Shown in pieces: positions 6,287-62,996 of a stretch of DNA of 64,000 bases. The stretch covers positions 2,852,001-2,916,000 of the forward strand of contig NZ_JBBNAC010000001.1 of the NCBI RefSeq assembly GCF_037996825.1. The letters are read 5' to 3'. The stretch comes from Bdellovibrio sp. BCCA (GTDB lineage Bacteria; Bdellovibrionota; Bdellovibrionia; Bdellovibrionales; Bdellovibrionaceae). A model generated the notes under the pieces. That model saw only the letters and a list, made by a program, of their open reading frames with translations. It made no database searches and was not told the origin of the DNA. The first letter of the stretch is position 1. Each line of letters opens with the position of its first letter. Position numbers and translations under genes: made by a program.

Positions 6287-6362
6287 TGGCAGGGGCGGAG
6301 GGATTCGAACCCACGACCTAACGATTTGGAGTCGTTCGCTCTACCACTGGAGCTACACCCCT
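6287..6362 (-). tRNA. tRNA-Trp (anticodon CCA)
   Basis: The reverse strand folds into a full cloverleaf with acceptor AGGGGTG/CGCCCCT (one G-U pair), anticodon loop CTCCAAA and T loop TTCGAAT. The 3' CCA is encoded at 6289-6287. It precedes secE, as in many bacteria. Confidence 0.97.
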
Positions 6363-6523
6363 GCGATCTTCTTGATGATAATTGGCGAATCCCCGCGTTG
6401 CTCGGTCGTCGGCGTACAAAAGTATGCTCTCCTTGGTCGCGCCTTGGGCTTCATCAATTCTCATCAAGAATCTCCCCATTTGGGAGACTTCATTGATTTT
6501 CCGGCCATGTCAAGAAACACCGA

Positions 6524-6551
6524 GGGGGACTCTCTTGTCAAGAAGTCCCCC
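6524..6551 (-). terminator. Strong hairpin after tuf, probable terminator
   Basis: GGGGGACT (6524-6531) and AGTCCCCC (6544-6551) form a stem that continues inward with TCTTG/CAAGA. It lies 35 bases after the tuf stop. The following T run is weak, so it may also act as an RNA processing or stability element. The rest of 6363-6585 holds no gene that I can support. Confidence 0.55.
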
Positions 6552-6585
6552 GGGTGATTTAAATTCAGCCTATGCTGCGTTAATC

Positions 6586-7776
6586 CTACTCAAGGATTTC
6601 AACAACTACGCCGGCGCCTACAGTACGGCCACCTTCGCGGATCGCGAAACGCAATTCTTTTTCCATTGCGATTGGAGCGATCAACTCAACAGCCAACTCT
6701 ACGCGGTCACCAGGCATAACCATCTCAGTTCCAGCTTTCAAAGTACAAACGCCTGTTACGTCAGTTGTACGGAAGTAGAATTGAGGACGGTAACCGTTGA
6801 AGAATGGAGTATGACGTCCACCTTCTTCTTTAGTAAGGATGTAAGCCTCAGCTTTGAATTTTTTGTGAGGTTTTACAGAACCTGGTTTCGCCAAAACTTG
6901 ACCACGCTCAACTTCTTCTTTTTTAGTACCACGAAGAAGAACACCGCAGTTGTCTCCAGCTTGACCTTCATCAAGAAGTTTACGGAACATCTCGATACCA
7001 GTTACTGTTGTTTTTTGAGTTGGACGGATACCGATGATTTCGATCTCGTCACCAACTTTAACGATACCACGCTCTACACGGCCAGTAACAACTGTACCAC
7101 GACCAGAGATAGAGAATACGTCCTCTACTGGCATCAAGAAAGTTTTGTCAGTAGCACGAACTGGTTCAGGGATGTAAGCATCGCAAGCGTCCATCAATTT
7201 CATGATAGCTGGACGACCGATTTCAGAAGTGTCACCTTCCAAAGCTTTCAAAGCAGAACCTTTTACTACTGGGATTTCGTCGCCAGGGAATTCGTACTTA
7301 GAAAGAAGTTCGCGAACTTCAAGTTCAACAAGGTCCAACAATTCTTTATCGTCAACCATGTCCACTTTGTTCATGAATACAACTAGAGCAGGAACACCTA
7401 CTTGACGTGCAAGAAGGATGTGCTCACGTGTTTGTGGCATTGGACCGTCAGCAGAAGAAACTACTAGGATAGCTCCGTCCATTTGCGCGGCACCAGTGAT
7501 CATGTTTTTTACGTAGTCGGCGTGTCCTGGGCAGTCAACGTGAGCGTAGTGACGTTTGTCAGTTTCATACTCAACGTGAGTTGTAGAGATAGTGATACCA
7601 CGCTCTCTCTCTTCAGGAGACTTATCGATTTGATCGTAAGACATCGCCTGAGCTTTACCAGCTGCTGCAAGAGTAGTAGTGATAGCAGCAGTCAAAGTTG
7701 TTTTACCATGGTCAACGTGACCGATTGTGCCGATATTTACGTGCGGCTTCGAACGGTTAAATTTCTCTTTAGACAT
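6586..7776 (-). CDS. tuf: Translation elongation factor Tu
   Basis: EF-Tu carries aminoacyl-tRNA to the ribosome as a GTP complex. The protein has 396 residues, the normal length. The GTPase motifs are GHVDHGKT (about 18-25), [12 protein letters not shown] (about 81-92), NKVD (about 136-139) and the SAL-type motif GSALKALEG. Domains 2 and 3 follow with [12 protein letters not shown] and [27 protein letters not shown] precedes the ATG. It is located between four tRNA genes and tRNA-Trp/secE, as in the tufB locus of enterobacteria. Confidence 0.99.
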
Positions 7777-7845
7777 TATTCCTCCTGCAGAGATTTATTT
7801 TTAAGTCTTAAACCATTAACTAATATCAAATCAATAAGTAACAAG

Positions 7846-7920
7846 TGGAGCCCATGATCGGAGCCGAACCGACGACCTCACCCTTACCAAGGGTGTGCTC
7901 TACCACTGAGCTACATGGGC
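7846..7920 (-). tRNA. tRNA-Thr (anticodon GGT)
   Basis: Cloverleaf on the reverse strand with acceptor GCCCATG/CATGGGC, anticodon loop TTGGTAA and T loop TTCGGCT. The CCA is encoded at 7848-7846. It is the last tRNA before tuf. Confidence 0.96.
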
Positions 7921-7936
7921 GTATAGTTCTGAAAGT

Positions 7937-8013
7937 TGGAGCGGGAAACGGGTCTCGAACCCGCAACCCTCTGCTTGGAAGGCAGATACTCTAGCCAATT
8001 GAGCTATTCCCGC
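7937..8013 (-). tRNA. tRNA-Gly (anticodon TCC)
   Basis: Cloverleaf on the reverse strand with acceptor GCGGGAA/TTCCCGC, anticodon loop TTCCAAG and T loop TTCGAGA, with an encoded CCA at 7939-7937. Confidence 0.96.
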
Positions 8014-8080
8014 CCAGTCAGAACGCCCTGAAGAGAAGTAAACTTCTCTTCCCATTCAATTTCCGAGTCAGCATTCAAAA

Positions 8081-8166
8081 TGGTGGGCAGGGAAGGATTC
8101 GAACCTTCGTAGACGCAAGTCAACGGATTTACAGTCCGTCCCCTTTAGCCACTCGGGCACCTACCC
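8081..8166 (-). tRNA. tRNA-Tyr (anticodon GTA)
   Basis: Class II tRNA of 86 bases with a long variable arm. Acceptor GGGTAGG/CCTGCCC, anticodon loop with GTA, T loop TTCGAAT, and an encoded CCA at 8083-8081. Confidence 0.96.
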
Positions 8167-8193
8167 AGTTGTGAATGTTGACTCAGAAAAAAA

Positions 8194-8269
8194 TGGAGCT
8201 GGTTATGGGACTCGAACCCGCAACCTGCTGATTACAAATCAGCTGCTCTACCAATTGAGCTAAACCAGC
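8194..8269 (-). tRNA. tRNA-Thr (anticodon TGT)
   Basis: Cloverleaf on the reverse strand with acceptor GCTGGTT/AACCAGC, anticodon loop TTGTAAT and T loop TTCGAGT, with an encoded CCA at 8196-8194. It is the first of four tRNAs leading into tuf. Confidence 0.96.
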
Positions 8270-60042: not shown

Positions 60043-60069
60043 TTTTTATTTTTGATTTGTGCGAAAAAC

Positions 60070-60098
60070 AAAACCCGGTGGAAGACCGGGTTTTGTTT
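60070..60098 (+). terminator. Terminator after tetR, left boundary of cassette
   Basis: AAAACCCGGT (60070-60079) and ACCGGGTTTT (60085-60094) pair around a five-base loop. It closes the tetR transcript. From here to 60286 the sequence is A+T-rich with no gene. Confidence 0.9.
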
Positions 60099-60255
60099 TC
60101 TAAGACCAATAACGACTTAAGTCGCGCCGCAAAAAACAAATATTTATTTATTAACTCATTTGCCGTAATGTATTAAAAGGGGACGCCTTTGTAATTAATA
60201 TTATATTAATATTATTGTCATTTTCGTATCCACACTTAAATTGAGTTTAATTTTC

Positions 60256-60264
60256 TGGTATGAT
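60256..60264 (+). promoter_or_regulatory. Extended -10 promoter of the three-gene cassette
   Basis: TGGTATGAT is an extended -10 (TGn-TATGAT), about 23 bases before the TTG start at 60287. No good -35 is at the right distance, as often for extended -10 promoters. The region upstream contains the repeat TTAATATTATATTAATATTATT. Confidence 0.5.
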
Positions 60265-60286
60265 ATCCGATAATGGGTAGGTAGAG

Positions 60287-60706
60287 TTGGCAAAAACAAG
60301 AGTTCATAGGAAAGTAAAACCTGCACATGTTCCACCGGCAAATCATCTCGCTAAAGTTAAAAAGCTAACGGAACAAAATAAAATTGAAGCCACAAAGACT
60401 AGGGCTTTGGATTTTGTGCAAAGAATTTACAAGTGTGGACCTTCAGACGCCATAAAAAAAATCACTAAAGAAATACTGGAACTAGATAAATCCAACTTTG
60501 CGCATACACGAACTATCAACTCCCTTGAATGTGATGTTTATGGAAAAATTATTGATGCGATTCCATGGTATATCAAGTTTTGTATAGATAAAGACAATCT
60601 GGGCAGAAAAGGCGAGTTCGTAAACAATCTGTCTTTTCACCCAACAGAGGAAGAACTAACAACACAGTCTGGAAAAATTCCGGCATACTCCGGAGGAAAA
60701 AAATGA
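60287..60706 (+). CDS. Small basic protein, first gene of cassette (possibly MqsR-like toxin)
   Basis: A protein of 139 residues from the TTG at 60287, with GGTAGGTAGAG upstream. The first about 40 residues are basic. The middle (AKKITKEILELDKSNF region) and VYGKIIDAIPWYIKFCIDKD have some likeness to MqsR toxins, which have a DFYKSM...VWQDVY...LYIKF pattern. That is weak and only suggestive. The stop overlaps the next ATG (ATGA). It has no signal peptide. The gene order toxin then antitoxin fits mqsRA. Confidence 0.7.
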   Translation: MAKTRVHRKVKPAHVPPANHLAKVKKLTEQNKIEATKTRALDFVQRIYKCGPSDAIKKITKEILELDKSNFAHTRTINSLECDVYGKIIDAIPWYIKFCIDKDNLGRKGEFVNNLSFHPTEEELTTQSGKIPAYSGGKK

Positions 60707-61239
60707 ACAAAAAAATGCAATGCCCAGTTTGTGGCGGGTTGGTCGAGAAAAAAAATATTAAAGGAAAGACCTTTCAATGGAAGTGGTTTTCCGAAGTCCC
60801 TGTTTTAAGCAACTACTACCTCCCGGTATGTTCAAAATGCGGAGAAATGTTTATCAATCCTGAAGCAGCACGTAGTTTAGACATTTTTTTAAAAGATTCT
60901 GTACTTAGCGCAACAAAAGAATTCCTTCGAAAGCTAAAAGAGAATTCAAAATTAAGCCAGAAGGAGTTGGCAGACGATATCGGAATTTCGGAAGTATATT
61001 TGTCGAGCCTCATAGGCGGCAAAAAGGTTCCAAGCTTATCAGTTTTTAACTTAATCAAAATCACGGCAAAGAACACAGCTTTATTAGACGAAATGAAAAC
61101 CCTCAAAGGCAGATCAAGTAATTATGCATCTAAAAATTCTGAAATGAAAAAGTTTAAGTTTTTGAGTACTTCCGAACAGGAAACATACAGCAAAGAATCT
61201 ACATTCAATAACATCCTTTGCGAGGAAATAATACATTGA
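60703..61239 (+). CDS. Zinc-ribbon / XRE protein resembling MqsA-type antitoxin
   Basis: A protein of 178 residues. N-terminal zinc ribbon: CPVC (Cys7, Cys10) and CSKC (Cys43, Cys46), typical of YgiT/MqsA proteins. Then the EEAARSL-like linker and an XRE helix-turn-helix about residues 78-118 (LSQKELADDIGISEVYLSSLIGGKKVP). A polar tail of 50 residues follows. MqsA antitoxins of this layout repress their own operon. Overlaps genes on both sides by four bases. Confidence 0.85.
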   Translation: MNKKMQCPVCGGLVEKKNIKGKTFQWKWFSEVPVLSNYYLPVCSKCGEMFINPEAARSLDIFLKDSVLSATKEFLRKLKENSKLSQKELADDIGISEVYLSSLIGGKKVPSLSVFNLIKITAKNTALLDEMKTLKGRSSNYASKNSEMKKFKFLSTSEQETYSKESTFNNILCEEIIH

Positions 61240-62924
61240 AGGTCTTCAAGCCCTATTTTACGACATTTTATTCTTATAAAGGCGGTGTCGGACGCACCAG
61301 TGCTCTGATTAATTCTGCTCTTCATAGAGCAATTGAAGGAGATCGAGTTGTTGTGATTGATTTCGACCTTGAAGCTCCTGGAATCTGGCCTTATGTAAAA
61401 GAAATTGCCAAACATTACTCAGTAGACGTCGAGCTAGAAAACAGAGATGGCATCCTTGAGTATTTATATGAGGCAGTAAATTCTAATGAAATACCGAACT
61501 TAAAATCGCGTGCTGTTTCCGGTAAAGATCTGGGATTAAAAAACATCGAAGGTCAGATTTGGTTTATTGGGGCGGGAAATACTTCAAAAGCGGATTACTC
61601 CAGAAAGTTATCAGCACTAAACTGGGCAAGTATTTTTGAAAATAATGCCGGTGCTGCGATTTTAGCAAATTTTAAAAAACAATTGGCGCACGAATTTGAC
61701 CAACCCGATCATATCTTTATAGACTCCAGAACAGGAATCACAGAAGTCGGCGGAGTTTGTACAAAGTATTTAGCTGATCAAGTGGTCACATTGTCATCAT
61801 TAAATGATCAAAACATTAGGGGAACTGCAAAAGTTGTAAATTCTTTTAGACAATCAAATATATCAACAATACTGGTTGCCTCAAACGTACCCGCAGGTCT
61901 TCCCTGGGGGAAGGATCAAATGTTCACAGAGAGAATCAATCTCTACAAAGAAGCCTTTGGGTCATTCCCTAGTCTGCTAGTTTACCACTACCCGAGTCTT
62001 TCTCTTTCTGAATGCATACCTGTTTTGTTCTATGCAGAAAAAGAACACTCAATTCTCCCCGCTGATCCTCTCCTAAAGTCATACGCCAATCTTTCTGATG
62101 AAATCGATCAAAGAAATCCAAATAGTTTTAAGATATTAGTTCATGACATTAGCTATTCTTTATTTGCTTCCGCTCCAAATAAGGAAGTATTAGACGCGTA
62201 TTTTGCATTCTGGGAAAAATACTATTCAAACAGAAACTCGCTGTTAAATTTTCTTAAAGACCTATATTCGGTGATTCTTGTTTTGCAAGAAAACGACATC
62301 GGAAAAGAGCTGTTAAAAAAAGACCGCCTGAAAGAACTCAAGGCTATAAATAATTATGCTCCGACCAACTACCCTTCATTAGAAACCTTAAAAGATTTTA
62401 TAACTATGAAAGCAGGAGTGGAAATCGTTAAGGAGATAGAGAAAGATTGTTCATATTGCAAGAGCGCCGGAGAATGGTTTCAATTATTACATGAAATGCC
62501 GAGAATTCGTGCGACTGAGATTCTAATTCGCGAAGGCTACTATGATTTCATTCTAAAAAACGTTAAGTCTTCAGAAGACGACGAAAGCACCGTGAATATC
62601 TTTGGAAGGGCCTTCTGTTTTGAAAAAACAGGGCAAGAAGAAAAAGCTTTGGAGCTCTATGAACAATACATTCAAGCATTAGGAGAAAGATTTGACGAAT
62701 TCGAATCCTCACTTCCATTCATCACAATGGCATTTGCAGCTGAAAAGATTAATAATTTGGAATTAGCCCAAGAGGCAATCCAAAAAACTCACAAATTCCT
62801 TAAGACTTCTAGTGAGTCCGAATATTTTATACCAGCAACCTGGAAAAAAACGAATAACATCAAAGAGTTTAAAAAGTATGTTGCAGAGTTAGAAAACTCG
62901 ATAAATAAAAAAATGCAAATTTGA
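61236..62924 (+). CDS. KGGVGR-motif ParA/MinD-like ATPase with helical (TPR-like) C-terminal half
   Basis: A protein of 562 residues from the TTG at 61236 (GAGGAAATAATACA upstream, overlapping the previous stop). The N-terminal about 280 residues are a ParA-type ATPase with deviant Walker A FYSYKGGVGRTSAL (residues 11-24), VIDFDLEAPG (switch/Walker A') and HIFIDSRTGITEVGG (Walker B region). The rest is helical; residues about 430-560 resemble TPR hairpins (NIFGRAFCFEKTGQEEKALELYEQYI). ATA codons are frequent, unlike neighbours. Function is unknown; candidates are defence, partition or signalling. Confidence 0.88.
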   Translation: MKVFKPYFTTFYSYKGGVGRTSALINSALHRAIEGDRVVVIDFDLEAPGIWPYVKEIAKHYSVDVELENRDGILEYLYEAVNSNEIPNLKSRAVSGKDLGLKNIEGQIWFIGAGNTSKADYSRKLSALNWASIFENNAGAAILANFKKQLAHEFDQPDHIFIDSRTGITEVGGVCTKYLADQVVTLSSLNDQNIRGTAKVVNSFRQSNISTILVASNVPAGLPWGKDQMFTERINLYKEAFGSFPSLLVYHYPSLSLSECIPVLFYAEKEHSILPADPLLKSYANLSDEIDQRNPNSFKILVHDISYSLFASAPNKEVLDAYFAFWEKYYSNRNSLLNFLKDLYSVILVLQENDIGKELLKKDRLKELKAINNYAPTNYPSLETLKDFITMKAGVEIVKEIEKDCSYCKSAGEWFQLLHEMPRIRATEILIREGYYDFILKNVKSSEDDESTVNIFGRAFCFEKTGQEEKALELYEQYIQALGERFDEFESSLPFITMAFAAEKINNLELAQEAIQKTHKFLKTSSESEYFIPATWKKTNNIKEFKKYVAELENSINKKMQI

Positions 62925-62957
62925 CTATAACGACTCAGGGATTTTTTTAAATGCATT

Positions 62958-62988
62958 AAGCCCGATAAAAATATCGGGCTTTTTCTTA
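62958..62988. terminator. Terminator, right boundary of cassette
   Basis: AAGCCCGATA (62958-62967) and TATCGGGCTT (62972-62981) pair around a four-base loop, followed by TTTTCTT on the plus strand. It also lies just past the stop of the minus-strand gene at 62997. Confidence 0.9.
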
Positions 62989-62996
62989 AATTATTG

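Follow-up and report, generated by a model that had tools for sequence, protein, structure and literature searches.

A three-gene cassette in Bdellovibrio sp. BCCA

We analysed a stretch of 64,000 nucleotides from the genome of Bdellovibrio sp. BCCA (contig NZ_JBBNAC010000001.1, positions 2,852,001 to 2,916,000; hereafter the window, whose own numbering is used throughout). Close to its right end lie three genes in tandem, which an earlier reading of the sequence, referred to here as the original prediction, had described as a self-contained cassette. The genes, and the two protein segments on which their interpretation depends most, are as follows.

60287..60706, plus strand: gene 1, a small, basic protein of 139 amino acids; predicted MqsR-type toxin
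60703..61239, plus strand: gene 2, 178 amino acids; MqsA-type antitoxin and likely autorepressor
61236..62924, plus strand: gene 3, 562 amino acids; KGGVGR P-loop/TPR protein, proposed controller
61099..61236, plus strand: C-terminal tail of gene 2 (residues 133-178, 46 amino acids, motif KFKFL...STFNNIL); proposed docking or addiction segment
61278..61298, plus strand: variant Walker A motif KGGVGRT of gene 3 (residues 15-21), with the signature Lys15 retained and Arg20 at the position of the usual Walker lysine

Adjacent genes overlap by four bases, as had been claimed, with ATGA at 60703 joining genes 1 and 2 and TTGA at 61236 joining genes 2 and 3. The TTG start of gene 3 at 61236 agrees with the N-termini of its homologues. 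Our combined findings indicate that the cassette is very probably a three-part toxin-antitoxin (TA) module.

The antitoxin gene and the KGGVGR gene

The second and third genes were assigned to known protein families by profile searches. Gene 2 matched the Pfam MqsA family (PF15731) over the entire model (E=2e-8, 34.9 bits, cut-off 30), while its score against NCBIfam TIGR03830 was 40 bits, under the cut-off of 61.8. Four cysteines, C7, C10, C43 and C46, fall on the conserved cysteine positions of the zinc ribbon, and an XRE-type HTH domain was found at residues 75-115 (HTH_3, above cut-off); the protein probably represses its own operon. Gene 3 belongs clearly to NCBIfam NF047398, the KGGVGR-motif variant AAA ATPases (156.9 bits, cut-off 90). 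Its P-loop part (residues 9-203) also matched the PADLOC candidate PDC-M28B (E=1.2e-26), and neither library assigns a function. The partner model PDC-M28A had no match among the three cassette proteins at E values up to 1, and no SecB family was present in their Pfam and NCBIfam matches. The C-terminal half of gene 3 is TPR-like according to the family profile. Across 47 aligned homologues, residues K15, G16, G17, G19 and R20 are invariant, so that the canonical lysine of the ParA-type Walker A motif (KGGxGK[ST]) is replaced by Arg20 in all 47. The proposed combination of an MqsRA-like pair with a KGGVGR ATPase carrying a TPR-like half was thus borne out, genes 2 and 3 matching their families above cut-off and gene 1 matching its family below cut-off but nearly over its full length.

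Recurrence of the arrangement

The original prediction had turned on whether homologues of the three proteins ever occur together. They do, both in 48 database loci and in searches from the toxin side. We assembled 93 loci, consisting of the best 80 of a genome-wide scan with five ATPases, 7 loci on viral contigs and 6 on plasmids, and searched their neighbouring genes with profiles seeded from plasmid and window sequences, taking E below 1e-20 as a strong MqsA match. An MqsA gene was found immediately ahead of the ATPase gene in 48 of the 93 loci; the sample was picked by similarity to mostly MqsA-linked ATPases, and such fractions are therefore not rates for the whole family. Upstream of MqsA in these 48 loci we found an open reading frame (ORF) matching the toxin profile in 39, another ORF of 100-140 amino acids in 8 and none in 1. 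The MqsA gene usually overlaps the ATPase gene or ends within ~20 bases of it, and many of the pairs share 4 bases or stand just a few bases apart. The arrangement recurs in at least nine phyla of bacteria. Judged by record titles, the phyla represented among the loci include Pseudomonadota, Acidobacteriota, Planctomycetota, Verrucomicrobiota, Myxococcota, Gemmatimonadota, Bacteroidota, Latescibacterota, Binatota and Armatimonadota.

The same organization was seen on plasmids. A tblastn search of plasmids gave four nearest kinds of record. Three of them, from Rhizobium phaseoli, Massilia forsythiae and Rhizobium gallicum, carried an annotated MqsA-family gene right before the ATPase gene, preceded in turn by an unannotated ORF of ~120 amino acids. 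The fourth kind (L016, 4333-6839) has an ATPase of the MqsA-linked group behind a 221-amino-acid protein without a Pfam match, possibly a partner swap in which this protein has replaced the antitoxin gene. No relatives of gene 3 were found in phage records.

Linkage to MqsA also follows the relationships among the ATPases. In a tree of the P-loop part, 41 of the 42 members of one supported group are MqsA-linked, and the label requires 4 changes over the tree compared with 28.6 in shuffles. The window ATPase sits on a long branch of this tree and its placement is unsure. Searching instead with a profile of the toxins of related loci (class II, see below), we found matches in 2 of 385 alphaproteobacterial and 1 of 247 acidobacterial genomes, and in each case MqsA and the ATPase follow. 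One of these three genomes had not been reached through its ATPase, and there too MqsA and a KGGVGR ATPase lie directly behind the toxin. KGGVGR proteins above cut-off were present in 8 of the 247 genomes of the Acidobacteriota sample, and of nine loci that were read 1 was MqsA-linked, so that a link to MqsA does not hold for the ATPase family at large. The pairing of an MqsRA-like pair with a KGGVGR ATPase is well supported, and what had been called an unusual composite is indeed rare per genome but is a recurrent arrangement rather than a one-off.

Gene 1 and the related toxins

Gene 1 aligned to nearly all of the Pfam MqsR model (PF15723; residues 17-104 to model positions 2-88 of 95, E=0.0011), with 19.8 bits against a cut-off of 26.2. 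Stronger indications of fold came from the class-II toxins, the toxin family of related ATPase-linked loci, 34 of which were aligned and matched no relevant Pfam or NCBIfam family. One member (L029) was modelled with AlphaFold from 28 sequences, and the model reached a mean predicted local distance difference test score (pLDDT) of 93.3. When Foldseek-ranked chains were realigned to this model with VIA-align, E. coli MqsR (3hi2_D) came out on top (Z 9.5, root-mean-square deviation 2.6 Å, 90 of 91 residues), followed by RelE-type toxins at Z 5.2 and lower; Foldseek's own list prior to realignment held no significant match. By predicted structure, the class-II toxins have an MqsR-like (BECR) fold.

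Alignments revealed a pattern common to gene 1 and the class-II toxins, Y95-x-K97 ... S116-F117-H118 in gene 1 numbering. In E. coli MqsR the corresponding residues near the C-terminus are SFK, compared with SFH in the cassette toxin. Gene 1 and the class-II toxins showed no significant similarity in a profile-profile comparison, a sequence search of the PDB with gene 1 as query returned nothing useful, and no relatives of gene 1 were found on plasmids or viral contigs. As the structural model of gene 1 itself is poor, its identity as a toxin rests on the sub-cut-off MqsR match, its position and the shared motif, from which we predict an MqsR-type toxin that would cleave mRNA.

The antitoxin tail

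Every one of the 49 ATPase-linked MqsA proteins, from the 48 loci plus the window, extends beyond the MqsA core with a C-terminal tail of 36-67 residues. Tails of the class-II group share a short pattern, (K/R)F(R/K)xL ... FxLR, and with a profile built from them the window tail, KFKFLSTSEQETYSKESTFNNIL, scored better than 996 of 1000 of its own shuffles. In position and length the tails match the chaperone-addiction segment of the MqsA antitoxin from the toxin-antitoxin-chaperone (TAC) system of V. cholerae, which spans residues 136-176 (PMC5105189). In a small comparison with a few MqsA-like proteins that have no KGGVGR gene beside them, two stop 4 residues after the core and others have longer, unrelated extensions.

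Insertion and putative regulatory signals

The cassette is an insertion of ~2.8 kb that is missing in congeners. In at least 7 congeneric relatives, the two flanking genes (TetR on the upstream side and the downstream gene) are convergent and lie about 60-230 bp apart without the cassette, in most cases sharing one terminator-like hairpin between them. In the window, the cassette sits between these two genes, which face each other directly in the relatives. A 9-bp direct repeat, ATAACGACT, marks the edges of the insertion; it occurs twice in the 64 kb window, both times flanking the insertion, and may be a target-site duplication. Among the genes adjoining the cassette, to which this result is confined, no integrase or transposase was evident, and no integrating enzyme explains the repeat. 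Elsewhere in the class, a search of 142 other genomes yielded no KGGVGR protein above cut-off, and gene 3 as a query in the same class gave weak partial matches only.

Base composition also sets the cassette apart. Its G+C content is 0.367 compared with 0.444 across the window. ATA codons, said in the original prediction to be absent from the neighbouring genes, do occur there (1 of 82 isoleucine codons in the RND gene and 1 of 11 in the downstream gene) but are strongly enriched in the cassette, where they make up 17 of 66 isoleucine codons compared with 37 of 952 across 50 further ORFs of the window (p = 6e-9). The cassette was horizontally acquired, as seen from its absence in congeners, the class-wide scan and the ATA enrichment, and we count this in favour of its being a TA module.

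The repeats and the putative regulatory features around the genes are listed below.

60065-60099: upstream terminator-like hairpin, a perfect 15-bp inverted repeat directly after the upstream TetR gene
60109..60117: left copy of the 9-bp direct repeat ATAACGACT, at the left edge of the insertion
60196..60214: candidate operator upstream of the promoter, a perfect palindrome (TAATATTA-tat-TAATATTA) found by repeat search
60256..60264, plus strand: extended -10-like promoter element TGGTATGAT, read directly in the sequence
62927..62935: right copy of ATAACGACT, at the right edge of the insertion
62958..62981, plus strand: downstream terminator-like hairpin, a 10-bp stem and T tail 3' of gene 3

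Terminator-like hairpins were located on either side of the cassette, as had been claimed (60065-60099 and 62958-62981). The extended -10-like element TGGTATGAT is present as well; it has no normally spaced -35 box and does not appear in the list from a two-hexamer scan. The palindrome at 60196..60214 may serve as an operator, because MqsA-type antitoxins autoregulate. Far from the cassette, the window also holds five tRNA genes on the minus strand at 6287-8269 (Trp, Thr, Gly, Tyr and Thr), four of them clustered at 7846-8269.

Other neighbourhoods of KGGVGR proteins

Some KGGVGR ATPases have partners other than MqsA. In two cyanobacterial loci (L072, 253-1198; L098, 5128-5989) the ATPase gene lies behind a Gp49/HigB-type toxin gene and an HTH gene, in the same three-gene plan. 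In two loci from Bacteroidota (L073, 4995-5986; L076, 5008-5966) it lies behind a DUF6932 gene, with the HTH gene confirmed in L073, whose DUF6932 protein matches the PADLOC candidate PDC-M63A. A recurrent protein of ~210 amino acids with an RPPY... motif and no known family precedes KGGVGR ATPases in further loci (L065, 5347-5976; L067, 1795-2436; and similar), spanning archaea and several bacterial phyla. On a Rhizobium plasmid (L018, 5007-9704), a KGGSGR ATPase gene is apparently split by an IS21-type insertion, with the TPR-like part continuing downstream.

Defence genes were seen near some related copies. Directly after one related cassette (L066, 6720-8797) there are two genes, the second of which matches PARIS (AriAB; E=1.3e-105), and family tallies recorded prokaryotic Argonaute (pAgo), AriAB, HerA, SIR2 and methyltransferase families near some copies. 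As these are family tallies without a computed background, we claim no enrichment of defence genes.

The other neighbourhoods hint at a wider class. KGGVGR P-loop/TPR proteins could be a general third component of TA operons with unrelated toxins (MqsR-type, Gp49/HigB-type and DUF6932 nucleotidyltransferase-like), forming a class controlled by a nucleoside triphosphatase (NTPase) parallel to the chaperone-controlled TAC systems. We put this forward as a tentative extension that we consider rather unlikely.

Proposed mechanism and alternatives

How might the three proteins work together? The MqsR-type toxin encoded by gene 1 would cleave mRNA. Gene 2 encodes the zinc/HTH antitoxin that would block this toxin and is also the probable repressor of the operon. 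Gene 3 would most likely bind the extra tail of MqsA and keep the antitoxin folded or stable, like the SecB-like chaperone in TAC systems. Loss of gene 3, or interference with it by, for instance, a phage product, would make the antitoxin fail, whereupon the toxin would cut mRNA and growth would stop. What the analysis itself shows is the content, order and coupling of the genes, their recurrence, the MqsR-like fold of related toxins and the tail on MqsA. We infer the toxicity of gene 1, the contact between tail and TPR-like half, the direction of control, the trigger and the role in defence. Control of the antitoxin by gene 3 through the MqsA tail is plausible, with a chance that we place a little under even. 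The statement as a whole, a three-part TA module in which gene 3 takes the place of the chaperone as controller, is the one we favour, with somewhat better than even confidence.

Several observations weigh against this interpretation. The MqsR match of gene 1 is under cut-off, and the same Pfam model gives 27 bits, above cut-off, inside a MarR-type frame of a relative (L207, 1162-1782), probably a false positive; the 19.8 bits of gene 1 are for this reason to be read with caution. The structural model of gene 1 (helix-helix-4 strands) is of low confidence, with a pLDDT of 63, and Foldseek with VIA-align returned generic alpha-beta rows for it and no useful structural match. The toxins of loci whose ATPases are most like that of the window are too divergent for a good alignment. 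The tail motif is also weak among the loci with window-like ATPases, with only the window, L027 and L040 clearly above shuffles. In addition, the change from lysine to arginine in the Walker A motif of gene 3 would fit ATP hydrolysis or mere nucleotide binding, and the third component of a TA operon need not be a chaperone.

The closest rival reverses the role of gene 3. Here MqsA alone would keep MqsR in check until the ATPase detected infection, stripped away the antitoxin and thereby activated the toxin, so that loss of gene 3 would silence the system instead of poisoning the cell. The combination of an altered P-loop and a TPR-like half would suit a sensor switched by nucleotide, a PARIS gene lies right behind the cassette in one related locus, and other KGGVGR ATPases follow a Gp49-like or a DUF6932 gene together with an HTH gene, as if one sensor served several effectors. 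However, the tail of every ATPase-linked MqsA resembles the addiction segment in place and length, although a sensor could dock there too, and we regard a sensor as a real but unlikely possibility. Both interpretations predict growth arrest through an mRNA-cutting toxin and differ in the effect of losing gene 3.

The remaining alternatives appear much less probable. A TA pair with a ParA-like protein could stabilize plasmids or islands, as suggested by the plasmid location of three of the nearest relatives, two of these plasmids typed conjugative, and by four MqsA-linked relatives on viral contigs. This is improbable given the invariant arginine at the usual Walker lysine, the lack of a ParB gene in the cassette, the position of the window cassette alone between two chromosomal genes and the occurrence of its relatives mostly in genome contigs, several of them megabase-sized. 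We give a similarly small chance to genes 2 and 3 being a regulator-ATPase pair, with gene 1 an unrelated ORF or a decayed toxin. The sub-cut-off match, low-confidence model and divergent relatives of gene 1 would fit such a pair, as would the L016 ATPase, which belongs to the MqsA-linked group and sits behind a different protein, but gene 1 occupies the toxin-first position with a 4-base overlap, matches MqsR over nearly its full length and has the Y-x-K ... S-F-H pattern in common with the confidently modelled MqsR-like toxins. Finally, an ordinary MqsRA pair may have come to lie beside an unrelated ATPase, in keeping with the single MqsA-linked locus among the nine KGGVGR loci read in the Acidobacteriota sample. 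Such a chance neighbourhood is refuted in substance by the recurrence of the same order and tight spacing across many phyla and by clustering on the ATPase tree, leaving it a negligible probability.

Relation to known systems and implications

The three-part module that we favour resembles TAC and MqsRAC systems (PMC5105189, PMC9519451) in having an MqsR-type toxin, an MqsA-type antitoxin with a C-terminal extension of ~40 residues and a dedicated third gene, which differs in being a SecB-like chaperone there and a KGGVGR P-loop/TPR protein in the cassette. MqsRA with its SecB-like chaperone (MqsRAC) protects E. coli against phage T2 (PMC9519451). With the two-gene mqsRA operon of E. coli the cassette shares the toxin gene in first place, the zinc-ribbon/HTH antitoxin and, through the related toxins, the MqsR fold, whereas it adds a third gene and an antitoxin tail beyond the 131-position MqsA core. 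In PARIS (AriA-AriB), an ATPase controls a growth-stopping effector, which served as our working analogy; the three cassette proteins, however, have no match to the PADLOC PARIS models. Other composites have been described in a 2025 survey of RelE/ParE-fold toxins (PMC11980606). In our literature search, the names KGGVGR and PDC-M28 were not found in any paper, and searches for tripartite systems with MqsA or ParA-type proteins did not find this arrangement described; neither result is proof of absence elsewhere.

KGGVGR proteins are numerous enough for NCBI to keep a model of the family, yet no function for it was found in the literature searched. The conserved link to MqsR and MqsA, together with a tail at the place of the TAC addiction segment, gives a handle on what KGGVGR proteins do, and the related loci add a toxin family that has no model in Pfam or NCBIfam and whose predicted structure is MqsR-like. 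If our interpretation is true, antitoxins can depend either on a chaperone or on an NTPase, and the cassette may represent a new way of leashing a growth-stopping toxin.

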